Virus record (IMG/VR): IMGVR_UViG_3300035211_000132
Coordinates: 1-55,592 of that record
DNA length: 55,592 bases
Source: a virus
Reading direction: 5' to 3' (one strand)
Below the pieces are notes generated by a model. That model was not told the origin of the DNA. It saw only the letters and a list, made by a program, of their open reading frames with translations, and did no database searches. Every line of letters starts with the position of its first letter. Position 1 is the first letter of the stretch. Shown piece after piece: positions 2,359 to 44,715 of this stretch. Made by a program: the position numbers and the translations under genes.

Positions 2359-2913
2359 ATGACTCTAACAACATCCTGCCGACTGCCAGACCAACGATAC
2401 ATTGACCGAGTGAGGTCCAAGCTCAGGCCGTTCGCTGGTCCCCTATCAACACCCTGCTGGGCCTACACAGGGGGGCATGATGTTGCAGGTTACGCCAGGA
2501 CCACCATCCCCGGTAGCGGCCAGTGGCGCGTCCACGCTCTGTTATGGCGATCCGCGGGCGGGGTGTACCGGGACGGTTGGTGCCTGGACCACCTGTGCCA
2601 TAACCCAGGCTGCTGCAACCCTGACCATCTAGAGCTCGTCCCTCGAGGCCTCAATGCGGCTCGTGGGCTGGTAAAGCTCACTGCCGAGCAGCGCCGTTCC
2701 GTGATCGAATCGTCGGAGACGGCCGCAGTTTTGGCCGCTCGATATAGGGTCAGCAAGAGGACGATTTTTCGCATCCGCCGTGGGACCGGCAGGTTCAATC
2801 GAGAGCTCACCGCTCCCTCCCTATGCAACCGATGCACACCCATGACACACATGTCATACCCGAGAACGTGTGTGTCATCCAATAGTTACGGCAAAAGTCA
2901 AAGTGACCCATGA
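2359..2913 (+). CDS. HNH homing-type endonuclease with C-terminal HTH
   Basis: The protein has 184 residues. Residues about 55-95 hold an HNH_3-type motif (VHALLWRSAGG, then CLDHLCHNPGCCNPDHLELV), as in phage homing endonucleases. An HTH resembling intron-encoded nuclease repeats follows (SSETAAVLAARYRVSKRTIFRIRRG). The reading frame runs through the operators at 2842-2857 and 2910-2925, so its last 25 residues may carry little function. No intron or split gene is visible beside it, so it is probably a free-standing homing nuclease. Confidence 0.8.
   Translation: MTLTTSCRLPDQRYIDRVRSKLRPFAGPLSTPCWAYTGGHDVAGYARTTIPGSGQWRVHALLWRSAGGVYRDGWCLDHLCHNPGCCNPDHLELVPRGLNAARGLVKLTAEQRRSVIESSETAAVLAARYRVSKRTIFRIRRGTGRFNRELTAPSLCNRCTPMTHMSYPRTCVSSNSYGKSQSDP
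2842..2857. promoter_or_regulatory. Palindromic operator ATGACA-N4-TGTCAT, copy 2
   Basis: Perfect 6-bp arms at 2842-2847 and 2852-2857 flank CACA. The core is the same as at 849-868. It lies about 110 bases before the promoter-like element at 2968. A further half site, TGTCAT, is at 2873-2878. Confidence 0.6.
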
Positions 2914-2925
2914 CAGTCATGTCAT
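2910..2925. promoter_or_regulatory. Palindromic operator ATGACA-N4-TGTCAT, copy 3
   Basis: Perfect arms at 2910-2915 and 2920-2925 flank GTCA. It lies about 45 bases upstream of the -24-like box at 2968. Together with copy 2 it forms a tandem pair, as expected for cooperative binding. Confidence 0.6.
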
Positions 2926-2967
2926 GCGCGTCTTCGGTGACAACGCGATTTCTTGGTGACAATTGAC

Positions 2968-2995
2968 TGGCACAGCGCGTGCATTAGTACCTGGC
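2968..2995 (+). promoter_or_regulatory. Sigma-54-like -24/-12 element, copy 2
   Basis: TGGCAC (2968-2973) and TGCA (2980-2983) have the exact -24/-12 spacing and match the sigma-54 consensus better than copy 1. TTAGTACCTGGC and the ATG at 2996 follow, almost as in copy 1. An overlapping TTGACT at 2963-2968 could be a sigma-70 -35 box with a poor -10, so the assignment is not certain. Confidence 0.45.
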
Positions 2996-3208
2996 ATGAC
3001 CACGACGACGACGAACAACACCCTGACCATCGAGACCGACGGCCTGACCCTCAGCTACTCGCCCGAGACCGACAGCCGGGTCATGGCCGCCGAGAACGGC
3101 CGGCTCTACACCCGGAGTGCCAAGAGCGCCCGCGAGCTGGCCAGCGAGCTCAGGTCCTGGGGTGTCGCGAATGCCCAGGCAGTCGGCAAGGGGGTGGTGT
3201 TCGGCTGA
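2996..3208 (+). CDS. Hypothetical 70-residue protein
   Basis: The small protein begins MTTTTTNNTLTIE and continues as a short beta-rich domain and one helix (SAKSARELASELRSW). No family is recognised. The ATG at 2996 is two bases after the predicted transcription start, with no Shine-Dalgarno, so translation may be leaderless. A TTG at 2963 is an alternative start but would place the promoter element inside the gene. Two operators lie upstream, so this is likely one of the most tightly regulated genes here. Confidence 0.6.
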   Translation: MTTTTTNNTLTIETDGLTLSYSPETDSRVMAAENGRLYTRSAKSARELASELRSWGVANAQAVGKGVVFG

Positions 3209-3228
3209 CGCGGCCGCCCCCAGCTCCC

Positions 3229-3270
3229 ACCCCGGTAGGGCTCGACCCCCGGGGTTGAGGTGTCAGGAGG
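3229..3270 (+). promoter_or_regulatory. Start-associated hairpin leader, copy 2
   Basis: ACCCCGG (3229-3235) pairs with CCGGGGT (3249-3255), and an inner GGG/CCC pair extends the stem. TTGAGGTGTCAGGAGG follows before the ATGs at 3273 and 3276. The downstream part matches copy 6 at 10275. Confidence 0.6.
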
Positions 3271-3275
3271 ACATG

Positions 3276-3656
3276 ATGCAGACACTCAGCACCCACAACC
3301 CGCGCCCGATCATGCTCGACCACAGTTCCGGCGGCCTGACATTCCTCGGCAGTGTAGTGGTTCTGACGCGCCATTTCAGCATTCACGCATGCTCGGACGA
3401 AGGCATGGTGCTAGCTGAGCTCTGGCACGGTTCCGAGGAGGGCATCGTACTGGCTCAGGTGTCAAGTGACGAGCCCGACAATAGCGTATTAGACGTCGGA
3501 CTCGCAAAGCGCAGCAGCAATCCGTTACTGCGACTCGCTGCTCGACTCATCGGAAAATCTCCTGTCGTCCACGAAGTCGGGCCGTATGACGCGGCGCTGC
3601 GAGCGAGCCGCCCCGCAAGAGGGCTGCCGCGCCCTGATGTATGCCTGGTATACTAA
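3276..3656 (+). CDS. Hypothetical 126-residue protein
   Basis: I chose the second of two adjacent ATGs (3276) because it is five bases from the AGGAGG of hairpin leader copy 2; 3273 is too close. The protein has a hydrophobic beta-rich N-terminal half (GGLTFLGSVVVLTRHFSIHA) and a basic C terminus (LLRLAARLIGKS). There is no signal peptide or clear membrane span. The family is unknown. Confidence 0.6.
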   Translation: MQTLSTHNPRPIMLDHSSGGLTFLGSVVVLTRHFSIHACSDEGMVLAELWHGSEEGIVLAQVSSDEPDNSVLDVGLAKRSSNPLLRLAARLIGKSPVVHEVGPYDAALRASRPARGLPRPDVCLVY

Positions 3657-3664
3657 TTTCCCAC

Positions 3665-3707
3665 GCCGGCACCCATTCAGTTGGGGCCGGCTTGAAGCCG
3701 TAGGAGG
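3665..3707 (+). promoter_or_regulatory. Start-associated hairpin leader, copy 3
   Basis: GCCGGC (3665-3670) pairs with GCCGGC (3686-3691), and an inner CCC/GGG pair extends the stem. TTGAAGCCGTAGGAGG follows, then the ATG at 3715. Its outer stem is shared with copies 4 and 7. Confidence 0.6.
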
Positions 3708-3714
3708 ATTGAAA

Positions 3715-3915
3715 ATGACACACCGACAACGTGTACTTGCCTGGGCGCGCTGCAACATCCGAGTCGGGGGCAGGACCCCCCGCATGTCCGCTACGTGCGC
3801 CACTGACCCGTCCCTCGGGGTGTCCACGTGGGACGTCTGGGAGTCGGCCGGGCGCAGCCGTAACCGGCTGGCTCGGGTGCGCGTGAGCCGCAGCGAAATT
3901 GAGGTGATCGACTAA
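3715..3915 (+). CDS. Hypothetical 66-residue basic protein
   Basis: This very basic small protein (many Arg, two Cys) follows hairpin leader copy 3 and TAGGAGG. The sequence gives little structure beyond a Trp-containing centre (GVSTWDVWESAGRSRNRLAR). It could bind nucleic acid given its charge, but that is a guess. Confidence 0.5.
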   Translation: MTHRQRVLAWARCNIRVGGRTPRMSATCATDPSLGVSTWDVWESAGRSRNRLARVRVSRSEIEVID

Positions 3916-3941
3916 CCACGCCCAGCCACACCGCCGCCACC

Positions 3942-3983
3942 GCCGGCACCTGCACTGCGGGGCCGGCTTGAGGCGTCAGGAGG
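3942..3983 (+). promoter_or_regulatory. Start-associated hairpin leader, copy 4
   Basis: GCCGGC (3942-3947) pairs with GCCGGC (3962-3967). TTGAGGCGTCAGGAGG follows, then the ATG at 3988. The layout is the same as copy 3, with a different loop. Confidence 0.6.
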
Positions 3984-3987
3984 CATC

Positions 3988-4278
3988 ATGAACGACGTTG
4001 CACGAGCGAGACTAGACCCTGAGATGACCGCCGTAGTCCGAGCACACGACGCGCTCGCCGCCGCAGTAGGGCGCGCCTCGGCCGACTTCGAGCTGTGGCA
4101 CGTACTGCAGCAGCTGCTCAATCGCTTCGTCGCGGACCACGCTGCGGCGTTCGCTGAGCTCGACCGACTGCAGCACGATGGCGACGTCTACGGATGCGAT
4201 GGTGAGCTGCTTCGCGAAGCGCTCAAGAGCGAAGGCCCCGTCTTCCCTGACGGCGGGCTGACATATCAACGGCGTTGA
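3988..4278 (+). CDS. Hypothetical 96-residue helical protein
   Basis: The acidic, mainly alpha-helical protein contains ALAAAVGRASADFELWHVLQ and a second amphipathic helix with DHAAAFAELDRLQHDG. It follows hairpin leader copy 4, with CAGGAGG five bases before the ATG. No family is recognised. Confidence 0.6.
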   Translation: MNDVARARLDPEMTAVVRAHDALAAAVGRASADFELWHVLQQLLNRFVADHAAAFAELDRLQHDGDVYGCDGELLREALKSEGPVFPDGGLTYQRR

Positions 4279-4317
4279 CCGCTGCCCGTGGGTCCGATAC
4301 CGGAAAGGGAGGTTCCG

Positions 4318-4554
4318 ATGCGCGATTACAATACGACGATTCCAACTGCACCGCCAACGACTCCAGCTAGCCCACCGACTGTTCCGCCTGGCGAGGTCGA
4401 CGTGTTTCTGATGGAGGCCGGCGCACGACGCATGCTGCGCCGCCGCGACCGTATCGGTCTAGCACGCGCGATGCTCCAGTACGGCCTCCCAGCGGTTGCC
4501 CCGCGGCCGCGTGGGACGCATGGTGGACAGAGGATCCGAAGGAGGGCAGCGTGA
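4318..4554 (+). CDS. Hypothetical 78-residue protein with Pro/Thr-rich N terminus
   Basis: The first 30 residues are a Pro/Thr-rich, probably unstructured segment. A helix (VDVFLMEAGARRMLRRRDR) and a basic tail follow. The ATG follows GGGAGG at 4308-4313. Its stop overlaps the GTG start of the next gene by four bases, so the genes from here to the Cas12m-like gene look like one operon. Confidence 0.6.
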   Translation: MRDYNTTIPTAPPTTPASPPTVPPGEVDVFLMEAGARRMLRRRDRIGLARAMLQYGLPAVAPRPRGTHGGQRIRRRAA

Positions 4555-4904
4555 TTCATTTCAAGAACGCTCGCGAAGAGCAACTCTGGATTTCCCGCAC
4601 GATGCGCGGCGATTCGTTCGACGAGGCCGATGCGTTCGTCCTCGAGTTCCGCCGCCGCGTCGAAGGGCCGAACACTGAAGGACGAGCTCCCGGCGTATGG
4701 CTTGAGGATGTTGGACCGAGAAAAATCCAGGTCATCAAGCAGATCCGCGAATACACCGGTCTAGGGCTACGCGAGTCGAAGGATGTTGTTGACCGGCAAC
4801 TGCCAACGCTGATTCCACGCCCATGGGGCGTACCTACCACTGACAATACCGCATTCATCAGCGCGTTGAGGAGTGCAGGGGCGACGGTAGTAGAGGTGAA
4901 GTGA
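4551..4904 (+). CDS. Ribosomal protein L7/L12 C-terminal-domain-like protein
   Basis: Residues about 57-117 look like the C-terminal domain of ribosomal L7/L12: KIQVIKQIREYTGLGLRESK, then DVVDRQLP, then a helix and the closing strand FISALRSAGATVVEVK. In bacterial L7/L12 this domain recruits GTPase translation factors. The N-terminal 50 residues (REEQLWISRTMRG, then a helix) are not the L7/L12 dimerisation domain. The GTG start overlaps the previous stop. A role in altering host translation is possible but inferred from the fold alone. Confidence 0.7.
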   Translation: MIHFKNAREEQLWISRTMRGDSFDEADAFVLEFRRRVEGPNTEGRAPGVWLEDVGPRKIQVIKQIREYTGLGLRESKDVVDRQLPTLIPRPWGVPTTDNTAFISALRSAGATVVEVK

Positions 4905-5176
4905 TGAGGGTGGACCCAGCCGAAAGGATGGAAACCATGAAGCTAGGAAAGCACGACTACATCAAGCTTGGACCGGGGAACTATCGCTGCGACACCTTCT
5001 CAGTCGGAATCTTCGAGTGGGTGCCTGCGAAAAGTGGCGGTCTGAAGAAGAGCAAAGCGAAGGTCCGCGTCGCTGGTATGACGTCGCACCCAGAGGCTGT
5101 ATGGACCAAAGCTGACAAAATCGTGGCGCAGCTCGACGCTGGAACGTACACGGGTAGGAAGATGGTGGTAGCATGA
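4901..5176 (+). CDS. Hypothetical protein, paralogue of the 11302-11562 gene
   Basis: The protein starts with MMRVDPAERMETMKLGKHDY; an internal ATG at 4937 is also possible. The core FSVGIFEWVPAKSGG, then KAKVRVAG and IVAQLDAGTYTGRKMVV are shared almost word for word with the protein at 11302-11562, so the two are paralogues about 6.4 kb apart. The domain looks like a small beta-rich fold with one helix. Start and stop overlap the neighbours by four bases. The function is unknown. Confidence 0.65.
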   Translation: MMRVDPAERMETMKLGKHDYIKLGPGNYRCDTFSVGIFEWVPAKSGGLKKSKAKVRVAGMTSHPEAVWTKADKIVAQLDAGTYTGRKMVVA

Positions 5177-5379
5177 CCAGCTCGGAGATTGACGAACTGG
5201 TGCTGCGTAGCATCAGATGTGGGAACAGGACGGCCAGTAGCGTCTGCTTTGATGTCGAGCGGCGCGGAATAGATGTTGGCGGAAGCAACAGATGGAGAAC
5301 CATCGACCGTGCACTACAGCGCCTCCGCAAGCGCGGCGTCATCAACTACACTCGATCATGGGGGTGGAAGGTGAAGTGA
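5173..5379 (+). CDS. Small winged-helix-like protein
   Basis: The 68-residue protein has a helix, a likely recognition helix and a short wing (WRTIDRALQRLRKRGVINYTR, ending WGWKV). That layout resembles small winged-helix DNA-binding proteins. It resembles in layout the lone plus-strand gene at 35214. It overlaps its upstream neighbour by ATGA. It may regulate the Cas12m operon, but its target is unknown. Confidence 0.55.
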   Translation: MTSSEIDELVLRSIRCGNRTASSVCFDVERRGIDVGGSNRWRTIDRALQRLRKRGVINYTRSWGWKVK

Positions 5380-5564
5380 TGCCAGCGCAGCACCTCAAGT
5401 GTCCAAGCTGCGGCAGCCTTTACGATACCGGTCCTGCACACGGGAAGGCATTCGAGTGCGTCGTCTGCGGCGCTTGGTTGCAGGCAGTCGAATTCAAGAT
5501 CGGATCTGGCTATGCGTTGCTGATCGAGCGACGGACTGCAAAGCTGATCCGAAAGCTGTGGTGA
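5379..5564 (+). CDS. Small zinc-ribbon protein
   Basis: The 61-residue protein contains KCPSCG and ECVVCG about 16 residues apart, a classic single zinc ribbon, followed by a basic tail (IERRTAKLIRKLW). The ATG shares one base with the preceding stop; a GTG one codon earlier is also in frame. It sits directly before the Cas12m-like gene. A nucleic-acid-binding or adaptor role is plausible but not shown. Confidence 0.6.
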   Translation: MPAQHLKCPSCGSLYDTGPAHGKAFECVVCGAWLQAVEFKIGSGYALLIERRTAKLIRKLW

Positions 5565-5578
5565 CCAAAGGAGCACTG

Positions 5579-7708
5579 ATGACCACCATCGTCTACAAGT
5601 ACGGGGCACGCGCCCCAATCGCCGGCTTCGAAGCGTTCCGCGAGCAGGAGCGACGTGCGCACAAGTACCGGCGCAAGCTACTCGACATCGAGATTGCACA
5701 CCATGCGACTCTAGCGACTATCGAGCGCGAGCAGCAAGCCGAGATTGCCGAGCTACTGGAGGAGCTTGCCGACGCAGACGACAGGATTGCGTTGCGGCTC
5801 GAGCAGGCGCGTCAGGAGCGGGTGAAGCAGCGCAAGCGCGGCGAGCAAGCAGCAGCGCGCGCCGAACTGAAGGCGCTGAAGGACGCTCGGAAGGACGTGA
5901 AGCGGCGCATCAAGGAGGCTCGTGTTCGAGTCCGTAATGCTCACGAGGCGGCATCACTAGAGTTCGAGTGGCGCTGCGCGGCGGGGCGTGCTGGAGTGCT
6001 AGATGGACGCGGGAAGCCAGCGCTGCTACCGTGCACGCATGGCGAATGGCTCGCCCCGATGAATGCCGAGGAGCGAGCTAAGCTTCGAGCGAAGTTGAAA
6101 GCTGCAACGAAGATTGATCCACCGACAACGGGGGATGTGCGGCGCGAGGTGCTCGCTACGATGCTCCAGGAACAGTGGCCAGCGCACTGGATCGCGCTGC
6201 AACGTGCTGACTGGGATCGATCAAGAGCGCGCCGACGGGCACGTGCTGATAGTGGTCTCTACCACGGGACCTACGCTGCAGTCGAAGACGCTGTGGACGC
6301 TGCGGTGAAGAAGCGGCGTAAGCTAGGGCTTCCTCCAGAACACCACTGGGTCGATCAGGTCCGAATCGGAACACAGTGCCAGGGCGGCGTCACCGCTCAG
6401 CGGTTCGAGTTGGCTGACGAATTGGAATTGTCTGCGCCCGGTCGAGCGTTCCAGCGCGCTGGCGGAAAGCCTCTTCCTGAGCACATGCGCAAGCGCGGAA
6501 CCGGACGGCGCTCTCGGACGCTGCGGACCATGCGTGTCCGCGTCGCGTCCGACGGTCGTGATCCTATCTGGGTGACACTGCCTGTGCAGATGCAACGTCC
6601 GCTACCGAACGGAGCACGAGTTCTGTGGGCATACGTCATCCGTCGCGACCTCGAGCGCGCCCCGTACTCGACGTGGGAGGTACAGCTCACCGTCGACGTC
6701 GATCGGAAGCGTCCAACTGCACAGCGGCACGAAGCGGTTGCCGTCGATGTTGGTTGGCGGCGACGACCAGAGGGCAGCATCCGCGTGGCATATTGGGTTG
6801 GTAGCGACGGCACCGAAGGAACCATCGACGTGCCAGCACGCATCGACGCGGCGCTCAGTCACTCGCACGAGATTCGCGCTGTCAGCGATCGTCTGTTCGA
6901 CGACGTTCGGTCTGTCGTGCTCGAGAACAAGGCGTCGCTTCCGGACGCCGCGCAGGAGATGCTCCGACATGCTGCGCAGTGGAAGCGCCACGGAAAGCTC
7001 GTTCGCGTCGCCACGGTGGTGTCCTACTACACCGACTCTGACTGGGAGTACTGGCGCAAAGAGCGCAAGGATGCACGGTTGCACCTCATGCCGACTGTCG
7101 ATGAGTCGCGAGAGCACGCCGGTGAAGACTGGCTTGCATGGTACCTCTACTGCTGGACTCGGCAAGATCGTCACCTGCATCAGTGGGAGGCCGACGAGCG
7201 TCGGCACGCGCTGCGCAGTCGCGACGAGATATTCCGCGTCGCAGCATCGCGGCTCGCGGCACGCTATCAGACACTCGTGCTCGAGGGTACCAACTCGACC
7301 AAGAGCGGGCTTCTCAACCTCGCCGATCTCGCCAGCAAGGCAGCCTCTACCGAAGCGGAGACCAAGGCGGACGACGCCCAGCGTGCGCAGCGAGTGAAAG
7401 CCGCGCCGGGCGAGTGCAGGTCAGCTCTTGTCCAGGCATTCCGTGGCTCCGTCGAACCAGAGCCGTTGGAGCGCACCACGACCGAGTGCCACCACTGCCA
7501 CGGGCTATGCGAGTGGGACGCTGCACGCGAACTGCGCCACACATGCGAGCACTGCGGAGCACGGTGGGATCAGGACGCAAACGCAGCGAAGAATCTGCTC
7601 CACCGCAGACGCGAGAGGCTCAATGGTGCATCGAACTCCGGAACCGCTCGCAACGCAAAAAAACCGCGCCAGAATGCTGGCGAAGCAGCATCCGACGCGG
7701 CAGAATAG
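5579..7708 (+). CDS. cas12m: Cas12m-like (type V-M) CRISPR effector
   Basis: The protein has 709 residues; the ATG at 5579 follows AAAGGAG. From memory, its layout matches Cas12m: an N-terminal YKY stretch, a long charged coiled coil (about 20-125), a WVTLPVQ strand region near 331, and a C-terminal RuvC domain. RuvC-I has D390 in VAVDVGW, RuvC-II has E569 in LVLEG, and RuvC-III has D664/D666 in DQDANAAKNLL. A zinc ribbon (C637/C640, C656/C659) lies between II and III. The CRISPR array starts 79 bases after the stop, and no cas1 or cas2 is present, as in other type V-M/V-U loci. Studied Cas12m proteins bind DNA without cutting and have a degraded RuvC site. Here the acidic triad looks intact, so cutting is possible. 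The alternative, an IS605-type TnpB, is unlikely given the adjacent repeat array and the length. Confidence 0.88.
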   Translation: MTTIVYKYGARAPIAGFEAFREQERRAHKYRRKLLDIEIAHHATLATIEREQQAEIAELLEELADADDRIALRLEQARQERVKQRKRGEQAAARAELKALKDARKDVKRRIKEARVRVRNAHEAASLEFEWRCAAGRAGVLDGRGKPALLPCTHGEWLAPMNAEERAKLRAKLKAATKIDPPTTGDVRREVLATMLQEQWPAHWIALQRADWDRSRARRRARADSGLYHGTYAAVEDAVDAAVKKRRKLGLPPEHHWVDQVRIGTQCQGGVTAQRFELADELELSAPGRAFQRAGGKPLPEHMRKRGTGRRSRTLRTMRVRVASDGRDPIWVTLPVQMQRPLPNGARVLWAYVIRRDLERAPYSTWEVQLTVDVDRKRPTAQRHEAVAVDVGWRRRPEGSIRVAYWVGSDGTEGTIDVPARIDAALSHSHEIRAVSDRLFDDVRSVVLENKASLPDAAQEMLRHAAQWKRHGKLVRVATVVSYYTDSDWEYWRKERKDARLHLMPTVDESREHAGEDWLAWYLYCWTRQDRHLHQWEADERRHALRSRDEIFRVAASRLAARYQTLVLEGTNSTKSGLLNLADLASKAASTEAETKADDAQRAQRVKAAPGECRSALVQAFRGSVEPEPLERTTTECHHCHGLCEWDAARELRHTCEHCGARWDQDANAAKNLLHRRRERLNGASNSGTARNAKKPRQNAGEAASDAAE

Positions 7709-7770
7709 TGGAGTTGTGGTGTGCGAAATCAGACCGCTCGCAAAGCACCTCGCAAGTCAGCGAGAACACT

Positions 7771-7791
7771 GGAGGCACGACAGGTGCCTCC
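7771..7791 (+). promoter_or_regulatory. Hairpin at the leader end of the CRISPR array
   Basis: GGAGGCAC (7771-7778) and GTGCCTCC (7784-7791) are perfect 8-bp arms around GACAG. The right arm includes the first four bases of repeat 1. A weaker hairpin (CTCGC/GCGAG) lies at 7749-7764. There is no T-run, so this is not a standard terminator. It may mark the first processing site or shield the 5' end of the crRNA precursor. Confidence 0.45.
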
Positions 7792-8261
7792 AACAAGGCA
7801 GCCCGACGCCTTCAAGTCGGGACGCCTGCGCGGCGGCTCGTATTTTCAACGAACGAAGGCTCCAACAAGGCAGCCCGACGCCTTCAAGTCGGGACGATGC
7901 GGTCGAATTTGGCGCACCTAGCGCTAGCGCGACTCCAACAAGGCAGCCCGACGCCTTCAAGTCGGGACAATGAATGGATCGAGGTTGTCGCATTTGTGCG
8001 AGGTCGCCTCCGACAAGGCAGCGCGATGCCTTCAAATCGCGACCCATTCTGTCAGCGCATCATCGATCCCGAGGACTGGCTCGCGATGTTCAGCTCCAAC
8101 ACGGCAGCCCGACGCCTTCAAGTTGGGACGACCCAGGGGCTTGCTTAAGCGACTCCGACAAGGCAGCGCGATGCCTTCAAATCGCGACGCTGACGCGACC
8201 CTTGGCCCGTGCCCTCCATGGGGCTCTCCGACAAGGCAGCTCGACGCCTTCAAGTTGGGAC
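7788..8261 (+). CRISPR. CRISPR array, seven 36-base repeats, six spacers
   Basis: Repeats begin at 7788, 7860, 7933, 8008, 8094, 8153 and 8226, each 36 bases long, starting CTCC and ending GAC. Spacers are 36, 37, 39, 50, 23 and 37 bases. Repeats 1-3 are identical; 4 and 6 form a second type; 5 and 7 carry further changes. A 6-bp stem (CCCGAC with GTCGGG) closes the loop GCCTTCAA. In repeats 4 and 6 the stem changes to CGCGAT with ATCGCG, so both arms changed together; 5 and 7 keep it by G-U pairs. The stem near the 3' end of the repeat fits plus-strand transcription with the handle 5' of the spacer, as in type V. No tracrRNA anti-repeat was seen. The array lies between convergent genes. Spacer 1 matches this phage at 42988-43023. 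Confidence 0.95.
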
Positions 8262-8289
8262 CGTACGGCCAGCAGACCCGTGCACAGAG

Positions 8290-8730
8290 TTAACGGTACC
8301 GATCACGCAGCGACTCGATCTGCTGCTGATGCCGCGCCAGTTCGCTGTCCACTTCGCGCCTGCGATCCTGGTCAGCCTCGCGGTCCGAAATGCGTTGCCC
8401 GCCTAGCCCCTTCACGTCTGCCTTTAGCTCCGCTAGGTCCGACGCAATTGCAGGCAGAGAGTCGAGTCGCGCTTTTGTAACCGGGTCCAACTCCACCTGG
8501 CCGAAGCCTGCCATCCACTGCACGAGAACCGAAGCAACTGCAGTGATCACGGCAGCAACAACTGGAGGGGTCCACAGTCGAGCTTGCGCCGCAATCAGAG
8601 AAGGCTGCTTCGGCGGAGGAGGCAGATGCTCGTCATGGACTCGCGATGGCCGTGACTCCGCCTCTGCGAGTTGCTCCTCGACGTCAGCCGGCGGTACTAG
8701 ACGACCACCGCAGTTGACCAGGCGATGCAT
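8290..8730 (-). CDS. Membrane-anchored coiled-coil protein, possible lysis accessory
   Basis: The 146-residue protein has one strong transmembrane segment at about residues 54-76 (PPVVAAVITAVASVLVQWMA). A polar Pro-rich N terminus precedes it, and a long charged coiled coil follows (SDLAELKADVKG to the end). The single anchor plus coiled coil resembles inner-membrane spanins or pinholins. It ends the cassette that encodes the peptidase at 9074. No specific family is recognised. Its stop lies 29 bases from the end of the CRISPR array. Confidence 0.65.
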   Translation of the reverse strand: MHRLVNCGGRLVPPADVEEQLAEAESRPSRVHDEHLPPPPKQPSLIAAQARLWTPPVVAAVITAVASVLVQWMAGFGQVELDPVTKARLDSLPAIASDLAELKADVKGLGGQRISDREADQDRRREVDSELARHQQQIESLRDRYR

Positions 8731-8732
8731 GA

Positions 8733-9077
8733 CTATGGCTCCATCCCGCCGTCGTCACCGAGCTGACACGGATTGCTGTTCCCGCCTCCGGGCTTGCACG
8801 GGAGTCGTGAGGCTTCGTGCTCGAGCTCTGTGATGCGCTCGTTCCGCAGTCGTGCATCATGCGCCAAGCTCGCGATGTCGGCCTGCATCGCTTTGATCTG
8901 ACTAGCTAGCCATGTGCGGAACTGCGCCTGTTCGCGCCGCTCTATCTCCTGTGCGTCGCGTTCGCGCTCGATGTCTTCGCGTAGCAAGTGCACACGCACC
9001 GCTAGCTGCGCCAACTGCGTGTCTCGTGTCTCTTCTTCAGGATGAGGGGTGTTCTGCGGATCGTCGGTACTGCTCAT
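8733..9077 (-). CDS. Coiled-coil protein of the 8.3-9.7 kb cassette
   Basis: The 114-residue soluble protein begins MSSTDDPQNTPHPEEE and is dominated by a continuous charged coiled coil (LLREDIERERDAQEIERREQ onwards). It ends with two Cys in a Gly/Asn-rich tail. The ATG overlaps the stop of the peptidase gene by ATGA, and the next gene starts two bases after its stop, so the three genes are cotranscribed. The function is unknown. Confidence 0.65.
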   Translation of the reverse strand: MSSTDDPQNTPHPEEETRDTQLAQLAVRVHLLREDIERERDAQEIERREQAQFRTWLASQIKAMQADIASLAHDARLRNERITELEHEASRLPCKPGGGNSNPCQLGDDGGMEP

Positions 9078-9712
9078 TGGGACAACTCCCACTGCTGCGC
9101 GATGTACTCCGCCGGGTCCACTGGGCCAGGGTCTGGCAGCCCATGCGCCGAGCACCAATCAGCGACCGCTAGCGCCGACGCGGTATAGACGATCGTGTCG
9201 GCGTCTACCGATGCCCAGACGCGGCGACCGCGGAGCATCAGGAAGTCGCCGACGCTATCAACCGAGCACTCGAACTGACGACCACCGCCGTGCCACTGTC
9301 CGAAATCTGCGGTCAGTGCTCGCCCATCGGGGGTCTGACCGAGGTATACTGCGATGTGGCCACCACGGTCGAAGTCGTAGCCGATGAAGTCCCCAGGTCG
9401 CAGTTGCTCAAGCTTCGGCAATCGAGGGACGGTGTGTTTACGTTCGCCGTAGAACCAGCCTAGGTCTGGCCTGCCTGTGCTGGGGAATCCGCGGTGCTCG
9501 TCGCGGAGGATGTGCTCGGCACGGCACCCGGCTGCGAATGCGATGCAGTCAGGGAGCTCGACACAGGACGTCCCGGGCTGGCTCGGTGGGTACTGCCGGC
9601 CCTCGACCACAGCCTGCTGGACCGGATGGCCGAATGCGCCTCTACCATCGCTGGTCAAATAGTATCCGAGCTCGACGATGGTGCGGCGGCGAGAGATTTT
9701 CGGGATGGGCAT
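9074..9712 (-). CDS. NlpC/P60- or CHAP-like peptidase, candidate endolysin
   Basis: The protein has 212 residues. Motifs fit the papain-like NlpC/P60-CHAP fold: a Cys region (GTSCVELPDCIAFAAGC, residues 47-63), LRPGDFIGYDF, then GGHIAVYLG with the likely catalytic His at 119. Such enzymes cut peptide bonds in peptidoglycan. I chose the ATG at 9712 (MPIPKISRRR); earlier codons would run into the divergent gene at 9755. It heads a three-gene cassette. It could be an endolysin or a virion wall hydrolase. The lysozyme-like gene at 12616 is a second candidate. Confidence 0.6.
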   Translation of the reverse strand: MPIPKISRRRTIVELGYYLTSDGRGAFGHPVQQAVVEGRQYPPSQPGTSCVELPDCIAFAAGCRAEHILRDEHRGFPSTGRPDLGWFYGERKHTVPRLPKLEQLRPGDFIGYDFDRGGHIAVYLGQTPDGRALTADFGQWHGGGRQFECSVDSVGDFLMLRGRRVWASVDADTIVYTASALAVADWCSAHGLPDPGPVDPAEYIAQQWELSQ

Positions 9713-9754
9713 TTGTTTACTCCTTCCGGCACGCAACCTGCATCCACGGTCACT

Positions 9755-10240
9755 ATGCGAAACTCTACACGCGGCACACCCGCTGCACGCCTGCTCAGGG
9801 CCCGTTTGGGTGTTGGTGACCCAGAGGCCCTGGAATACGTCAGAGACGCGCTGAGGCGCCACGGGAGCGCTGCTGCTGCGGCTGAGGAGCTGGGGGTGTC
9901 GGCGGCGACGGCAGGCAGGTGGGCTCACCTAGTCGGACTGGTCAGACCACGCGGAAACCCGGAGTTTCTTCTACGCAGAAAGTGCAACAGTGCGCAAAAG
10001 GCTGCAGACAAGCCAAACGAGCACGTTTCCTGCGAGACGGTCCGGCGATGTTCGAGAAAGCACGCAGGTTTTATGGGGTGTGCGTCGATCGATGAGGATG
10101 TCGGCACCCGTTCTCGCCCCGCAGGTTCGTCCCCGGGGCTTCGGGGTGCGAGCAGGCCGCGCGCGGCACACAGCGGGCGCCTCGGACCGGCCGGAGACAG
10201 GACGGAGGGTGAGAGCAGCCCCTACCAGAAAGTGGGCTAG
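9755..10240 (+). CDS. Fis-like HTH protein
   Basis: Residues about 20-65 form a Fis-type HTH (RDALRRHGSAAAAAEELGVS, then AATAGRWAHLVGLVRP), similar in type to the C terminus of the 362 gene product. The rest of the 161-residue frame is basic and of low character, and it runs through hairpin leader copy 5 (10116-10139). The true product may therefore be shorter or the tail degraded. It is divergent from the peptidase gene, 42 bases away. The likely role is transcription control of the 10-12.5 kb genes. Confidence 0.5.
   Translation: MRNSTRGTPAARLLRARLGVGDPEALEYVRDALRRHGSAAAAAEELGVSAATAGRWAHLVGLVRPRGNPEFLLRRKCNSAQKAADKPNEHVSCETVRRCSRKHAGFMGCASIDEDVGTRSRPAGSSPGLRGASRPRAAHSGRLGPAGDRTEGESSPYQKVG
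10116..10139 (+). promoter_or_regulatory. Start-associated hairpin leader, copy 5 (no start nearby)
   Basis: GCCCCG (10116-10121) pairs with CGGGGC (10134-10139). The 24-base stem-loop is identical to copy 1 at 1573. Here the bases that follow (TTCGGGGTGCGAGCAGG) have only a weak Shine-Dalgarno and no good ATG. It looks like a relic whose gene was lost or overwritten by the frame from 9755. Confidence 0.5.
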
Positions 10241-10274
10241 CTGCCGCTGGGCGCAGAGCTCGGCACCGACACCA

Positions 10275-10315
10275 CCCCGCCAGGTTCGCCTCGCGGGGTT
10301 GAGGTGTCAGGAGGA
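10275..10315 (+). promoter_or_regulatory. Start-associated hairpin leader, copy 6
   Basis: CCCCGC (10275-10280) pairs with GCGGGG (10293-10298). An inner AGG/CCT pair closes a TTCG tetraloop. TTGAGGTGTCAGGAGG follows, the same as in copy 2, before the ATG at 10320. Confidence 0.65.
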
Positions 10316-10319
10316 TACG

Positions 10320-10778
10320 ATGATCGAAGCGCAAACGCTCTGTCAGTCATGCGGGAATCAAGGGCCTTATCCGCTCGCCACAGGATTGGCGCCAACTCCT
10401 CAGCCATCCTGGTGTACGTGCAAGCGCAACGGCCCGGGATTGCTCCCCGGTGGGCCCTTCGTGGCCGCTCCGGGTGCAGTAGTCCAGTTCGCGTTTGACA
10501 CCCCGGAGGATCGCGCGTTCGCGGAACGCTGCAGGGTCGCCGGGAATGAATACGTGGATGCGCGTGACGCAGCGATAACCGCGAAGTGGACCCCGTGCGG
10601 AAAGATCCGTCCGCGTACCGGAGCGATTCGCAAGGCGGCAGAGCGGAAGTACCGCAATGCGCTCCGCGCTCTCACCAGGCTGCAGTCGCAGTGCCGGCAC
10701 TGGCGCGTGAGCATCTTCGAGCCGACGACGTGTGGTGTGTGTGGCGCCGACTTGAGGCCTTCCAATCATTCTGACTGA
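10320..10778 (+). CDS. Zinc-binding hypothetical protein
   Basis: The 152-residue protein has CQSCG and a second Cys pair (CTCK) within the first 35 residues, a basic helical middle (AIRKAAERKYRNALRALTRL), and CGVCGADL near the C terminus. Two separate metal sites are likely. It follows leader copy 6 with AGGAGG before the ATG. The family is unknown. A nucleic-acid-binding role would fit the charge. Confidence 0.6.
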   Translation: MIEAQTLCQSCGNQGPYPLATGLAPTPQPSWCTCKRNGPGLLPGGPFVAAPGAVVQFAFDTPEDRAFAERCRVAGNEYVDARDAAITAKWTPCGKIRPRTGAIRKAAERKYRNALRALTRLQSQCRHWRVSIFEPTTCGVCGADLRPSNHSD

Positions 10779-10799
10779 CCACCACACCCACCCCATCCC

Positions 10800-10840
10800 G
10801 CCGGTACCCGTTCGCTCGGGGCCGGCTTTCGGGGTAGGAG
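10800..10840 (+). promoter_or_regulatory. Start-associated hairpin leader, copy 7
   Basis: GCCGGT (10800-10805) pairs with GCCGGC (10821-10826), with one G-U pair and an inner CCC/GGG. TAGGAG follows, then the ATG at 10851. It belongs to the GCCGGC sub-type with copies 3 and 4. Confidence 0.55.
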
Positions 10841-10850
10841 AACACGAACC

Positions 10851-11111
10851 ATGGTGGACCTAATCGTGAACCGAGGAGTCAGCGAAGCCGCTTTGGGCAG
10901 CGCCAAGCCCTACGTCGTCGGCAACGGCCTCTACTGCGACGAGGTGGCACGGTACGCCACGTTCGACGAAGCGCTGGCCCACTACCGTAGGCTACGGAAA
11001 CAGCTCCCCGGCGAGTGGCGCGCGATCGGCATCTGGAACGAAGACGAGTGCGACGGTGCCACGGATGGCAATCCCGATGGCCTCACTGACGAGCAGAGGG
11101 AGCAACTCTGA
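10851..11111 (+). CDS. Hypothetical 86-residue protein
   Basis: The small acidic protein has a short beta stretch (KPYVVGNGLYCDEVARYATF) and a helix (DEALAHYRRLRKQL). It looks like a small soluble domain with an acidic tail. It follows leader copy 7. Its stop overlaps the next ATG by one base, so it starts a run of overlapping genes to 12564. No family is recognised. Confidence 0.6.
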   Translation: MVDLIVNRGVSEAALGSAKPYVVGNGLYCDEVARYATFDEALAHYRRLRKQLPGEWRAIGIWNEDECDGATDGNPDGLTDEQREQL

Positions 11112-11305
11112 TGCCTGACCTTCACGGAGCGGCCGCCGACACCAAGGCGCAGACCACCACATCACGCGGTGTCGTACTGGAGATTTCGGCAAGCGAACGT
11201 CGACGTGCCGAACAGCTGTCGCGCTCAGTGCTGGAGAAGCACGAGTCGCGGCGCCTGATGGGCAGCCGTCGGCCAGAGCTGGACAAGAAACAGGAGGAAC
11301 CGTGA
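11111..11305 (+). CDS. Hypothetical 64-residue protein
   Basis: This short, charged, mainly helical protein (EISASERRRAEQLSRSVLEK) overlaps both neighbours (TGATG at its start, a four-base overlap at its end). The function is unknown. Translation is probably coupled to the gene before it. Confidence 0.55.
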   Translation: MPDLHGAAADTKAQTTTSRGVVLEISASERRRAEQLSRSVLEKHESRRLMGSRRPELDKKQEEP

Positions 11306-11562
11306 AACAAGCAGGAACGCACGACTACGAAAAGCCACTCTTCATCACCGATGGTTGTTGGGGTGGAATGCAAACGTTCTCCGTCGGCATCTTCGAGTGG
11401 GTGCCAGCAAAGGGCGGAGGGGTCAAGCGAGGAAAGGCAAAGGTGCGCGTTGTCGGATCCCCGGATCGTCATGCGTCCGTGTTCGCAAAGGCCGACGAGA
11501 TCGTGGCGCAACTAGACGCCGGGACCTACTCTGGTAGGAAACGGGTTATCGTTGGATGGTGA
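11302..11562 (+). CDS. Hypothetical protein, paralogue of the 4901-5176 gene
   Basis: The GTG start overlaps the previous stop. FSVGIFEWVPAKGGG, KAKVRVVG and IVAQLDAGTYSGRKRVI match the product of 4901-5176 closely. The N terminus differs (HDYEKPLFITDGCWGG). In both places the gene sits in a chain of overlapping small genes, so a gene block was probably duplicated and then diverged. The function is unknown. Confidence 0.65.
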   Translation: MKQAGTHDYEKPLFITDGCWGGMQTFSVGIFEWVPAKGGGVKRGKAKVRVVGSPDRHASVFAKADEIVAQLDAGTYSGRKRVIVGW

Positions 11563-11564
11563 GG

Positions 11565-11825
11565 ATGAGCAAACCTATTCCGTCGCTATGGATCCTAGAC
11601 TTATACTCAGCTGGAGCACCTGACGAGGTGCTTGACTGGGTGGCTGCCGGATCGATGTCGCGTCGAATGCTGATGTCCTACGCTAGGATGTTCGGCAGGC
11701 GCCCACGGTGGTGGTGGACAAGGACTCGTCTTGGGAGGATTTACTGGCGTGGGCTGATTGGTGATGGGGCCGGGCTGCCGCCGCGTGGAGCTATTCCGTT
11801 GCGTCAGGGGCAGCTTGCTCCATGA
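11565..11825 (+). CDS. Hypothetical protein with a PRWWWTR motif
   Basis: I chose the ATG at 11565 (MSKPIPSLWIL); 11556 is an alternative that overlaps the previous gene. The centre holds MFGRRPRWWWTRTRLGRIYW. A nearly identical stretch (VRPRWWWTRGRL) is in the otherwise different protein at 52475-52972. The Trp/Arg cluster may be a short nucleic-acid- or membrane-binding element. The stop overlaps the next start by ATGA. Confidence 0.55.
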   Translation: MSKPIPSLWILDLYSAGAPDEVLDWVAAGSMSRRMLMSYARMFGRRPRWWWTRTRLGRIYWRGLIGDGAGLPPRGAIPLRQGQLAP

Positions 11826-12031
11826 CCCGCTGCACCGTCCTGAGATCGGAACGCACCGCACCGCGCCCCGGCTTCTGCCACGGCTGGCGGCTCGTGATGC
11901 CGGCTTGCGAAAGGCACTCGGCTGCAGCTGTGCCACCGGTCTCGGTGGCGTGCCGACGGCAGTGCTGCGGTAGGCATCCGGAGCGCGACTTGCGGCGAGG
12001 TGAGCGGGCCGTGGCTAGGTGGGATTGGTGA
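11822..12031 (+). CDS. Small Cys/His-rich protein
   Basis: The 69-residue protein has several Cys and His residues (TRC, FCHGW, PACERH, VACRRQCCGRH), suggesting one or two zinc sites. The main support is position: its ATG overlaps the upstream stop by ATGA, and its stop overlaps the downstream ATG. The sequence is Arg-rich. The function is unknown. Confidence 0.5.
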   Translation: MTRCTVLRSERTAPRPGFCHGWRLVMPACERHSAAAVPPVSVACRRQCCGRHPERDLRRGERAVARWDW

Positions 12032-12564
12032 TGATCGCAGCGCTATACGTGGCCAAAGGTGGCGTCTACTTCGACCCTGAGCTGACCGACGTTGATCCAT
12101 GGGACGAGGATCGCGATGCGCGACTGTACCATGGTCCGTGGCCTGTTGTTGCACACCCGCCATGCGGAGCTTACTCGAAGCTCGCGAGTCTCTATCAGCG
12201 AGACGATGCCGATTGCGCCGTGCGCGCTGTCGCCCAGGTGCGCGAGTTCGGCGGGGTGCTTGAGCACCCTGCACACTCGCAGCTATGGCGCGTCGAAGGG
12301 ATTGAGCTACCGAAGCCAGGTGATTTGCCGGATCGGTTTGGTGGGACGACAACCGAGGTAACACAGGTCGAGTGGGGGCACGTGGCTCGCAAGCGCACCT
12401 GGCTCTATTGCATGAGGACCGCACCAGTACCGCCGCCACCGTTCCCGGGAAGAGAGCCGACGCACTGGTGTTCGGGGTTCAGGCCTGGCGGCGGGCGAAA
12501 GCACAACTACAAGCGAACCGGCTGCGCGGTCCCGCCAGGGATCAAGGTCTGCTCTCGGCAGTAG
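12031..12564 (+). CDS. Cytosine-methyltransferase-like phage protein
   Basis: The 177-residue protein has VVAHPPCGAYSKL near the N terminus, where a Pro-Cys pair is placed as in C5-cytosine methyltransferase motif IV. VREFGGVLEHPAHSQLW and GHVARKRTWLYC follow. Small phage proteins of this type recur in actinobacterial and proteobacterial phages and are usually called DNA methylase-like. A SAM-binding FxGxG motif is not evident, so catalysis is uncertain. It ends the plus-strand group, and a lysozyme-like gene converges on it. Confidence 0.55.
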   Translation: MIAALYVAKGGVYFDPELTDVDPWDEDRDARLYHGPWPVVAHPPCGAYSKLASLYQRDDADCAVRAVAQVREFGGVLEHPAHSQLWRVEGIELPKPGDLPDRFGGTTTEVTQVEWGHVARKRTWLYCMRTAPVPPPPFPGREPTHWCSGFRPGGGRKHNYKRTGCAVPPGIKVCSRQ

Positions 12565-12609
12565 CGCAACCGCACCCCGCTCCCCTTCCGAGACATGCTG
12601 CTAGACCTG

Positions 12610-12627
12610 GCGCGCTCAGTTGCGCGC
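12610..12627. terminator. Hairpin between convergent genes
   Basis: GCGCGC (12610-12615) and GCGCGC (12622-12627) flank TCAGTT at the junction of the plus gene ending at 12564 and the minus gene ending at 12616. There is no T-run on either side, so any terminator function is weakly supported. Confidence 0.3.
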
Positions 12628-13242
12628 TAGCTGCATCCGCCTCAGCCGATACATCCGCGCCCTGGCTCGAGCGCCGTCGTTTGGCCGCCCTTCCCAGGCG
12701 CAGTCTACCGACCTGTACCCGGCGAATGCTCCAGCCAGTTTCCCGCCTGGGTGCCTCCCATCGCAGCGTTTGAGCGCCCCGAGGAAGCGCTTTCTGGCAC
12801 AGACAGCAAACGCATCTAGCGCCGCCTTGGAACCGCGCCGGTGGCCCCATCCTGAGCGGCAGGCGGTGACTTTCAACTGCCAGTAGGATCGAGACCTGCC
12901 ACGGTCGCAGTGCCCGGCACCATCGGGGATGCCGTCCGGGTAGTGGCAGCCAGAGGCTACGTACTCAGCAAACGCACTCTCGGCCCCGCCGATTGCCAGC
13001 AGCGCAGCGGCTTCCTGCGGTGTCCGCGACGCACGGTCTATCGCGTCGGCTGCCGCATCCAGCCTGGCTGACTGCTCGTCGGGCGTCTCTTCGTCGAACA
13101 CAGAGCGCGGCGTGTGCTCGAGCACGACTCGGATTCGATCGCGCCATGGCTCTCGCTCTTCAGCCTCGACATTACTGGCCCGCCCGCAGCAGTAGCAAAC
13201 GATGGCGACGAGCAGCAGCGCGCAGATAGGTCCATCTCGCAT
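12616..13242 (-). CDS. Lysozyme/transglycosylase-like protein with N-terminal anchor
   Basis: The 208-residue protein starts MRDGPICALLLVAIVCYCC, a signal anchor or lipoprotein-like signal. LLAIGGAESAFAEYV places a likely catalytic Glu at 88, as in goose-type lysozymes and soluble lytic transglycosylases. YWQLKV, GWGHRRG and AGAFAGYRS follow. Several Cys suggest disulphides and an export route. It would cleave glycan strands of peptidoglycan. With the holin-like gene at 15018 it could be the true endolysin of a signal-arrest type. Confidence 0.7.
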   Translation of the reverse strand: MRDGPICALLLVAIVCYCCGRASNVEAEEREPWRDRIRVVLEHTPRSVFDEETPDEQSARLDAAADAIDRASRTPQEAAALLAIGGAESAFAEYVASGCHYPDGIPDGAGHCDRGRSRSYWQLKVTACRSGWGHRRGSKAALDAFAVCARKRFLGALKRCDGRHPGGKLAGAFAGYRSVDCAWEGRPNDGARARARMYRLRRMQLARN

Positions 13243-41798: not shown

Positions 41799-42977
41799 TC
41801 AGGCGAGAACGTGGAACCAAACAGTGACGTCGAGCTCACCAGCATCCAAATCAGCTAGATCGTGGCTTCCGTCCGGGGTGAACGTGATAGTCAATTGTTC
41901 AGACGAAAAGCTGCCAACCGGGTGTACTCCGGCGGTGCTGAACGCTAGCTTCCCTGTCGCTGCCCCAGTGAAAACGTCGTGCCCGTCACCGATCGCATCA
42001 GCGTCAGTTCCGCCAACGTCGATGGTCACCGCCGTAGCTCCTCCACCACTGAACAGCGTAGTGATATCAACCTCGCTCGCTACCACTACAGCATTTGCTG
42101 GCAGAGCGGCTCCGATATTTAGAGCTTGTGCAACCCCATCAGACGATTCAGTGAGATCAGCCTGAGTAACGTTCAGCGTCCGCTTCTGGAAGATAGCGGC
42201 AGTGTTCGTGTTGATCAGCGCGCGGTTTTCCGCGAGCGCTGCCTCGACTGTCGTCCCAGTGATTAGCGTCCCGGAGTCTTCGATGCCGACCAGTGAAGCG
42301 CCCTCCCCATTGGAGGTAGACGCAAGCAGCGTCTGCAGCGCCGTCCCAGTCGTAGTCGTCGCGATAGCCGAGAAGGTCAGTGCGGTCGTGTTGAGTACGA
42401 TCGCGTCGTCCGTCGTGAGCATGAACAGGGTGTTCCCGTTCGCTGTACCCTCGTTTACAGTGATGAGGACTCCGGCGCGCATCTGGTCGCTCTGGGAGTG
42501 CGTAGATGCACGAACCATCGACCACTTTGCGTCGGCGGCTCCGATGCCGGTCAGTACGTAGAGACCGTTGTTGGCACCAGTGGACTCGTTCTTCACCAGC
42601 ACCAGCTCACCAACGGCAAGGTCGGTTAGGCCGTCGATGCCGGTGTCATTCAGCGCTGCGTTTGCGTCGGCTGTCAGCGTGTTGCTGGTTCGAGTATTGG
42701 CTGGTAGTGCAGCAGCAGTAGCGACGCGCACACGAATCAGCGCCGACGCCTCTCCGCGCACCAGCCACTTGCCGGACCCGCTCGAAGGGGACAGCCCATC
42801 AGAGGCAGTCGAGTCATCGTCGAACTGGAAGACCTTGCCTCCAGCTACTACCACCATTCCGTCCGCGCGATACGCTGGACCCAATGCCTGCAGCGCCGCC
42901 TCGGTGGCAAATGCTCCGCCAAATCGCTCAGAAACTTCTCGCGCCGCCGCGTCGCCGTACTTGAGTGCACCTGACAT
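41799..42977 (-). CDS. Fibre-like virion protein; gene next to the self-targeted site
   Basis: The 392-residue protein is Ala/Thr/Gly/Asn-rich and repetitive in style (TDLAVGELVLVKNESTGANN, then TALQTLLASTSNGEGASLV, ending with a beta domain of about 110 residues). It looks like a head or tail fibre. It is the first gene after the large terminase on the minus strand. Its ribosome-binding site (GAAGGAAACGACACC before the ATG) begins at the edge of a stretch identical to CRISPR spacer 1 (42988-43023). Interference there would block this gene and probably all structural genes below it. A homologue could not be named. Confidence 0.6.
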   Translation of the reverse strand: MSGALKYGDAAAREVSERFGGAFATEAALQALGPAYRADGMVVVAGGKVFQFDDDSTASDGLSPSSGSGKWLVRGEASALIRVRVATAAALPANTRTSNTLTADANAALNDTGIDGLTDLAVGELVLVKNESTGANNGLYVLTGIGAADAKWSMVRASTHSQSDQMRAGVLITVNEGTANGNTLFMLTTDDAIVLNTTALTFSAIATTTTGTALQTLLASTSNGEGASLVGIEDSGTLITGTTVEAALAENRALINTNTAAIFQKRTLNVTQADLTESSDGVAQALNIGAALPANAVVVASEVDITTLFSGGGATAVTIDVGGTDADAIGDGHDVFTGAATGKLAFSTAGVHPVGSFSSEQLTITFTPDGSHDLADLDAGELDVTVWFHVLA

Positions 42978-42987: not shown

Positions 42988-43023
42988 CCTTCGTTCGTTG
43001 AAAATACGAGCCGCCGCGCAGGC
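42988..43023 (-). other. Self-protospacer: 36/36 match to CRISPR spacer 1
   Basis: The minus strand here is identical over all 36 bases to spacer 1 (7824-7859). The site ends 11 bases before the ATG at 42977 and covers part of the hairpin at 43011-43025 and the start of the ribosome-binding region. On the crRNA-like strand the 5' flank is ACCCC, so the PAM position reads CCC. The T-rich PAM reported for characterised Cas12m effectors is absent. The 3' flank is AAACGACACC. Confidence 0.97.
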
Positions 43024-43119: not shown

Positions 43120-44715
43120 TCAGAATGGGGCGCGACCGTGACGGCCGGCCATGGATCTGCGAGCACGCATCGCGTCTGGCCCGAAGCGCGAATGCAGGCG
43201 CGTGTTGGCGATGAGGCGCTTGTTCGTCTCGGCGGCTCCGGAGTAGTCGACGGCGCCGCTTTCGCACGCCAGAGCCAACCCCATCGCGTTCGCATGGTCA
43301 GGGCTGCGCTTCAGGCGCTTCTTGATCGAGTCCTGTGACTCGACGCGGATCTTACCGGCTGGCGTGAGAGAGTACGTCGGCGCCACCAGTTCGCGCTCAA
43401 GCTCGTGGTTCGGCTCTAGTGCTGCCCCGTCAACCAGCCACTCCCGCAACATCCACCACATCTCGTCGCGGATTCGATCGAAGCGGTCCGTGTCGTTCGC
43501 AGACTGCGCTGAGTTGATCCCAACCACTGAGAGCCCGACTATGTCGCGCAACTCCTCGATCACACCATCGACGACGCCAGCGCCAAGCCCGCCCTCGTCG
43601 ATTCCAATCACGACCGGCTCGTTGCCTCGTCGCAACTCCTTGGCTGCACTGACGATCTCGCCCGTAACCTCGGTGGTCGGCGCCCCGTGGATCGTCCTGT
43701 GGGTCCCGCCGTAGTCGCCGCGTTTCCACGCGATTACGGTGTCATCGTCTCCGTAGCGCGCGATGTCGGCTCCGATGCAAAGCTTCCCGGATGCGGTTCC
43801 TGCCGGATCCAATGACGGGTCTTCGCGCCAGAGTTCCAGCGCTGCCTCGAGTGCGAAAAGCGGAACGACCACGTTGGGTCCGGACTTGGGGAAGTCGCCA
43901 CCAACACGGACGTCCCAGACGGGTTCCCCGGGCCCGCCGTACTCGCGCGCCATCTCCTCTGCCCAGATGGGCTCAGCGAGACCCGGTACCACAATCTCGC
44001 CAGCCAGGATGTTCGGCGACTCGAGGCTGGAGATATGAAGCAGCGCCCCTTCCTCGAACAGGTTCCGCTTGTCGTGGAACGAGTCGAAGAAGTGGCCGGT
44101 AGTAGTAGTCGGGTTCCCGGTCTCGACGAGCTTTCCGCCGCCGGCCAGGTTGCCCATGATGGCCTCGAAGACGGCGTCCTTCACGCCGCTGGCTTCGTCG
44201 ACCAGGTAGAGGACCTCCGGCGCCGAGATGCCCGAGAAGGAATCCGGGTCGTCAACGGTGAACCCGAGGATCTGCGAGCCGTTCGGAAGCAGGATGCCGG
44301 TGGATGGGTCCAGCGGGACGACTGGCAGCGCGTTGCCGCGCTGTGCCATGGAGCGGAGCTTCCTCACCTCGCGCCAGATCGTCTCCTTTACCTGCCGCGC
44401 TGTCGGATGAGTGGCAACGACTCGAACCCCCGGGCGAGTCAGTGCGAACCACCACGCGAGCAACGCGATCGAAAGAGTCTTGCCGGTCTTGTGACCGGAC
44501 CTGCACGCTACACGGCGAAACTTGGCGACCGCTCGGCAGAGGTCTGCCTGCTTCGTGTAGCCTTCGAACTCAAGACGGAGTCCAAAGAATTCCTTCGCGA
44601 AAGCAACTGGGTCGTTGCGGTATGACTCAATGGAGTCGGCCGTCCTCTTCTGCTTCCTGACCTTCCGCGCCGCCTCCGCCCAACGCGGCGACAATGCGAT
44701 CGAATGTTTCGTCAT
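43120..44715 (-). CDS. terL: Terminase large subunit
   Basis: The 531-residue protein has an ATPase domain with Walker A (CRSGHKTGKT) near residue 75 and Walker B (EVLYLVDEAS) near 170. A C-terminal RuvC-type nuclease domain follows (KLCIGADIARYGDDDTVIAW near 310; SPDHANAMGLA near 480). It drives packaging. It overlaps the small subunit gene by 89 bases. About 140 bases with the self-protospacer follow before the next gene. Confidence 0.9.
   Translation of the reverse strand: MTKHSIALSPRWAEAARKVRKQKRTADSIESYRNDPVAFAKEFFGLRLEFEGYTKQADLCRAVAKFRRVACRSGHKTGKTLSIALLAWWFALTRPGVRVVATHPTARQVKETIWREVRKLRSMAQRGNALPVVPLDPSTGILLPNGSQILGFTVDDPDSFSGISAPEVLYLVDEASGVKDAVFEAIMGNLAGGGKLVETGNPTTTTGHFFDSFHDKRNLFEEGALLHISSLESPNILAGEIVVPGLAEPIWAEEMAREYGGPGEPVWDVRVGGDFPKSGPNVVVPLFALEAALELWREDPSLDPAGTASGKLCIGADIARYGDDDTVIAWKRGDYGGTHRTIHGAPTTEVTGEIVSAAKELRRGNEPVVIGIDEGGLGAGVVDGVIEELRDIVGLSVVGINSAQSANDTDRFDRIRDEMWWMLREWLVDGAALEPNHELERELVAPTYSLTPAGKIRVESQDSIKKRLKRSPDHANAMGLALACESGAVDYSGAAETNKRLIANTRLHSRFGPDAMRARRSMAGRHGRAPF

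Follow-up and report, generated by a model that had tools for sequence, protein, structure and literature searches.

A gene for a Cas nuclease homologue followed by a CRISPR array whose repeats change in sequence while keeping their pairing, all within a phage genome, raises the question of which effector the array serves, what RNA structure its repeats encode, and at which DNA its spacers are directed. We address this question in the window, that is, the whole 55,592-nt stretch of the IMG/VR virus record IMGVR_UViG_3300035211_000132. As judged from sequence, the locus is very probably a Cas12m (subtype V-M) array carried by a phage, with the Cas12m pseudoknot as its crRNA handle.

Genes for terminase, portal, major head protein, tail sheath, and baseplate mark the contig as that of a phage. 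The array and the target of spacer 1 are also present on a virus contig of 90,329 bp, which is identical to the window where the two were compared (window 1-13705). This longer contig has replication genes and an anti-repressor; a tyrosine-family integrase was not detectable on it. Cas1 was looked for in this 90-kb contig and none was found, and new spacers would therefore need help from the host. The first-pass annotation had placed seven repeats at 7788-8261, and all seven were confirmed, each of 36 nt, at the starts given below. The array is read on the + strand and adjoins cas12m, and its ~36-nt repeats have the 3' end AC expected for Cas12m. The features of the locus are as follows, the cas12m assignment being from PADLOC, the PDB profile, and Foldseek, and repeat 1 from repeat finding and sequence.

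5579..7708, + strand: cas12m, 709 aa
7709..7787, + strand: leader-side gap between cas12m and repeat 1, from sequence
7788..7823, + strand: repeat 1, consensus
7824..7859, + strand: spacer 1 (36 nt), with 36/36 identity to the phage's own genome at 42988-43023 (minus strand)
7860..7895, + strand: repeat 2, same sequence as repeat 1
7896..7932, + strand: spacer 2 (37 nt), without a detected match elsewhere
7933..7968, + strand: repeat 3, same sequence as repeat 1
7969..8007, + strand: spacer 3 (39 nt), without a detected match elsewhere
8008..8043, + strand: repeat 4, both stem arms altered (CGCGAT/ATCGCG)
8044..8093, + strand: spacer 4 (50 nt), without a detected match elsewhere
8094..8129, + strand: repeat 5, G-U in the stem and one mismatch in the pseudoknot helix
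8130..8152, + strand: spacer 5 (23 nt)
8153..8188, + strand: repeat 6, same sequence as repeat 4
8189..8225, + strand: spacer 6 (37 nt)
8226..8261, + strand: repeat 7, last of the array, stem with U-G and G-U, rival hairpin predicted

By sequence and predicted fold, the effector is Cas12m, of subtype V-M. The best PADLOC model was Cas12u1 (V-U1/Cas12m; E 7.6e-65), and a PDB search with a profile built from 27 viral relatives matched MmCas12m2 (8hhl, E 1.3e-88), GoCas12m (8pm4, E 6.8e-85), and 23vw (E 1.1e-177), with profile positions 4-559 of 592 (near full length) aligning to MmCas12m2. When the predicted model (mean pLDDT 81, pTM 0.59) was compared with solved structures using Foldseek, the top four matches were Cas12m or Cas12m2; the overall TM-scores were only ~0.4-0.5, and domain placement in the model is therefore unreliable. 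The RuvC residues D390, E569, and D666 are conserved, as is a zinc finger (C637-C640-C656-C659). His269 of MmCas12m2, which contacts C-1, apparently corresponds to Gln339 in the phage protein, and Arg340 is retained. The best start is ATG 5579, behind AAAGGAG; the long open frame itself runs from GTG 5399, which would add 60 codons (5399-5578). Upstream of cas12m, a small protein encoded at 4551-4904 (+ strand) contains the C-terminal domain of ribosomal protein L7/L12 (Pfam E 3.3e-13). A derived-pattern search of bacterial genome contigs yielded no close relative of the Cas12m protein.

The genome of the phage itself contains a match to spacer 1, lying between the terminase gene and the first gene of the head operon, 11-46 nt upstream of the latter.

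43120..44715, - strand: terminase large subunit, adjoining the self-target on its upstream side
42988..43023, - strand: spacer-1 protospacer in the phage's own genome, 5' flank CACCCC
41799..42977, - strand: gene of 392 aa, first after terminase and downstream of the self-target, with weak matches to PHROG families (head decoration, tail fibre)

The protospacer stops 10 nt short of the next gene's ATG and overlaps with a terminator-like hairpin (43025-43011); the guide corresponds to the coding strand. For spacers 2-4 there was no outside protospacer in IMG/VR, and phage and plasmid collections held no protospacer for any of the spacers. When the spacers of 24 Cas12m phages were scanned against their own contigs, some of them fragments, self-matching spacers were found in 3/24 genomes (2/23 besides this phage). 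In one of these (G007), an array spacer at L060:10413 matches G007:54153 at 36/36 positions, and in the other (G008), a spacer at L061:10084 matches G008:15319, beside a baseplate gene, at 34/35; both targets are on the sense strand of an open frame, and their flanks (CTCGG and GTACA, respectively) are not obviously T- or C-rich. Because these two matches are within genes, self-matching alone is no sign of regulation. Self-matching is recurrent but rare, and fits sibling-derived guides as well as self-regulation.

To the reading of spacer 1 as an accident, by which it was recently taken up from this phage or a sibling by the host adaptation machinery and is tolerated since its flank is not a valid PAM, we would give about even weight. 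Spacer 1 is leader-proximal, making it the newest by the usual polarity; repeats 1-3 are identical, the phage is without cas1, and the two other self-matching phages lack an obviously T- or C-rich flank. However, the flank is C-rich here, and the spacer matches a 5' leader rather than a random place. More doubtful is a reading in which spacer 1 evolved as a regulatory guide, with Cas12m-crRNA1 sitting on the leader of the phage's own head operon and keeping the late genes off until the right time. A perfect match directly upstream of the first head gene would suit such a role, given that only ~3.9% of the contig is noncoding and within 50 nt upstream of a start, as would a coding-strand guide and a C-rich PAM-side flank, Cas12m PAMs including T- and C-rich ones (PMC11013384). 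This is nevertheless a single case set against the intragenic matches of G007 and G008 and their different flanks; no relative carrying the same spacer-1 site was found; and the seed may misfold, the first bases of the spacer-1 guide being able to compete for the AAGGC of the repeat in a pseudoknot-free fold.

The repeats themselves conform to a solved scaffold. The 36-nt scaffold solved by cryo-EM for MmCas12m2 pairs C-22..C-17 with G-8..G-3 and G-23 with A-2; A-24 is flipped, C-1 is recognised, and the 5' end (-36 to -30) is disordered (PMC10442227). The window repeat has A-24, G-23, CCCGAC at -22..-17, GTCGGG at -8..-3, A-2, and C-1, which are the MmCas12m2 positions. In addition, AAGGC at -29..-25 can pair with GCCTT at -16..-12 to give an H-type a-b-a'-b' pseudoknot; by register, this helix would equate to the 'stem' of MmCas12m2, which the text of PMC10442227 does not describe base by base. 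As first described, repeats 1-3 have CCCGAC/GTCGGG, and repeats 4 and 6 have both arms changed (CGCGAT/ATCGCG). In these two repeats, one C-G pair has become G-C and another U-A, each through a change in both arms. Repeats 5 (CCCGAC/GTTGGG) and 7 (CTCGAC/GTTGGG) keep pairing through G-U compensation, such that all changed stem cells in the window repeats still pair. The AAGGC/GCCTT pairing is likewise intact in six of the seven repeats, as had been stated, with ACGGC in repeat 5 giving one mismatch. Minimum-energy folding without pseudoknots returned the hairpin for repeats 1, 4, and 5, and for repeat 7 preferred a different, 11-bp hairpin built on AAGGC/GCCTT. An Rfam search gave no matching family for the repeat RNA. 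The proposed a-b-a'-b' pseudoknot is almost certainly real, to judge from the MmCas12m2 register and from covariation across the phage family; it is the already known Cas12m handle and is ordinary for the Cas12m family.

In the window alone there are four distinct repeats, in which pair counting gives 97.7% of cells paired. As many as 37/500 shuffles were equally good on the covariation measures, only two pairs are double-changed, and repeats 4 and 6 are a single inherited variant; the covariation evidence from the window is modest because so few of its repeats are distinct. With the hairpin held and the rest of the window repeat shuffled, a 5-pair helix arose at the pseudoknot position in 0.6% of shuffles. 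The family-wide comparison used 21 hand-chosen repeats from 12 phage arrays, all of 36 nt (arrays with 34-, 35-, or 37-nt repeats were left out). Here, 92.2% of cells pair, vs. 62.6% in shuffles, and 71 cells are doubly changed, vs. 24.6 in shuffles (0/500 reaching this number) and 22 in the best slid register. Double changes affect 6/6 pairs of the hairpin helix and 4/5 pairs of the pseudoknot helix, and the signal is lost when partners are slid by 1-3 columns; because the shuffles ignore relatedness, the family count leans also on these slid controls. Covariation in the second, AAGGC/GCCTT-type helix as well led us to reject a plain, unknotted hairpin. From these alignments, we conclude that RNA structure is under selection across the phage Cas12m repeat family. 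The first-pass annotation had argued that selection acts on RNA structure and that the array is consequently used: the first part is borne out by covariation in both helices, whereas use does not follow, covariation being a history of the repeats.

It is quite improbable that the paired changes arose by mutation rather than selection, through template switching in a DNA hairpin (quasi-palindrome correction) that copies one arm to the other, in an array that may be unused. The stems of repeats 4 and 6 are indeed perfect DNA palindromes of one inherited variant, and the window holds only two double changes. However, the G-U and U-G states of repeats 5 and 7 are mismatches in a DNA hairpin and are not expected from correction, such states are common in a second phage array (L071) as well, and the hairpin mechanism leaves unexplained the family-wide covariation of a second helix that is not nested. 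A Cas12f-like (V-F) system that uses a tracrRNA is by far the least credible reading: the PADLOC Cas12f model also scores (E 1.1e-59), but Cas12m outranks it in the PADLOC, PDB profile, and fold searches, the nearest solved structures and folds being all Cas12m, and an anti-repeat of at least 11 nt is absent from the + strand between 4500 and 9500 (the minus-strand list is occupied by the array itself).

The same kind of knot can form in a wider set of loci. One scan gave ~40 virus contigs with Cas12m, some of them near-duplicates, and in most of the related phages the array is downstream of cas12m. All 25 arrays considered (23 phage, two plasmid) allow the a-b-a'-b' knot, although a second helix of as few as 3 pairs was accepted, a weak criterion for any one array; in a shuffle control that keeps the hairpin, an equal second helix appears in up to 55% of shuffles for short-helix arrays, and the combined p is ~1e-7. 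The L071 array alone has 28 repeats, all different, in which 96.8% of cells pair and each of the six stem pairs shows a double change in at least one repeat.

Several of these arrays are unusual in other respects. The 28 all-different repeats of L071 (9772-11098 of IMGVR_UViG_3300024243_000005) are ~30 nt each, and L069 and L070 are apparently the same array. Its 'spacers' are mostly 15-21 nt (median ~18), near the 17-bp Cas12m heteroduplex, and their best own-genome match did not exceed 14/16. Cas1-Cas2 does not normally produce spacing this short. In L076 (9963-10860 of IMGVR_UViG_3300050505_000468), the far-end repeats are only ~5-14 nt apart and the near-end spacers are normal. On the Allomeiothermus silvanus plasmid pMESIL02 (L031:7127-7667), an array beside the Meiothermus silvanus Cas12m has differing repeats with compensatory stem changes, and in Virus Rctr197k (L009:4515-7980; KX853510) a Cas12m gene adjoins an array of >20 repeats with the same knot, the only labels in the public record being 'similar to transposase' for the gene and CRISPR.

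For the phage Cas12m system, we propose that the array would be transcribed and that Cas12m would bind the knot, the transcript being processed as in its relatives (PMC10442227; PMC11013384). In each 36-nt repeat, the crRNA handle would be an H-type pseudoknot in which a 6-bp stem and a 5-bp 5' helix interlock, the structure that the WED and RuvC domains of Cas12m bind. Cas12m contacts the helices mainly via the backbone and reads few fixed bases (among them G-23, A-2, and C-1 in MmCas12m2); for this reason, stem letters could drift if pairing is kept, giving the compensatory changes. By homology, the complex would bind target DNA beside a PAM over ~17 bp and block target transcription without cutting; the Cas12m proteins described to date act in this manner against both transcription and phage growth (PMC11013384). 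There is perhaps an even chance that the spacers are aimed at sibling, related, or rival phages, some with genomes so similar to this one as to account for the spacer-1 self-match. On our reading, the phage-borne system silences siblings or rivals by binding, and possibly its own late genes too. An RNA-guided switch on the phage's own head-gene operon, by which crRNA1 at the terminase/head-gene leader blocks late transcription in the phage itself or in co-infecting siblings, appears unlikely. The findings place a well-supported Cas12m system in a phage, with ~25 such arrays sharing a solved crRNA knot while their stem letters drift, and make it possible to test directly a guide that a phage carries against its own head operon. 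As the knot is already known, more interest attaches to this self-matching guide and to the other phage Cas12m arrays, one of them with very short spacers.

Among known systems, MmCas12m2 (PDB 8HHL/8HIO; PMC10442227) shares with the phage system the 36-nt scaffold, pairing register, G-23/A-2, A-24, C-1, full-length homology, and fold. It differs in its non-canonical H-D-D RuvC triad (PMC11013384), vs. D-E-D in the phage Cas12m, and in His269, apparently Gln in the phage protein; here, moreover, the system is phage-borne and the repeats vary within the array. The crRNA of GoCas12m has a triplex and a pseudoknot (PMC11013384), in the latter respect like the phage handle. GoCas12m and MsCas12m, with T- and C-rich PAMs and silencing by binding, D-E-D variants included (PMC11013384), would also resemble the phage enzyme, although their hosts are bacteria or plasmids rather than a phage. 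The Meiothermus plasmid array has divergent repeats too. Virus Rctr197k (KX853510) is alike in arrangement, with a phage-borne cas12m followed by a varied-repeat array and the same knot; it differs in having >20 repeats and no self-match in 197 kb. TldR (PMC13418256) regulates host flagellin and arose in parallel to CRISPR-Cas, being TnpB-derived and without a CRISPR array, whereas the phage studied here has a seven-repeat array and at most one guide to its own gene; the two are alike as phage-borne, RNA-guided systems of the TnpB/Cas12 lineage for transcription control, a role that the phage Cas12m would share.
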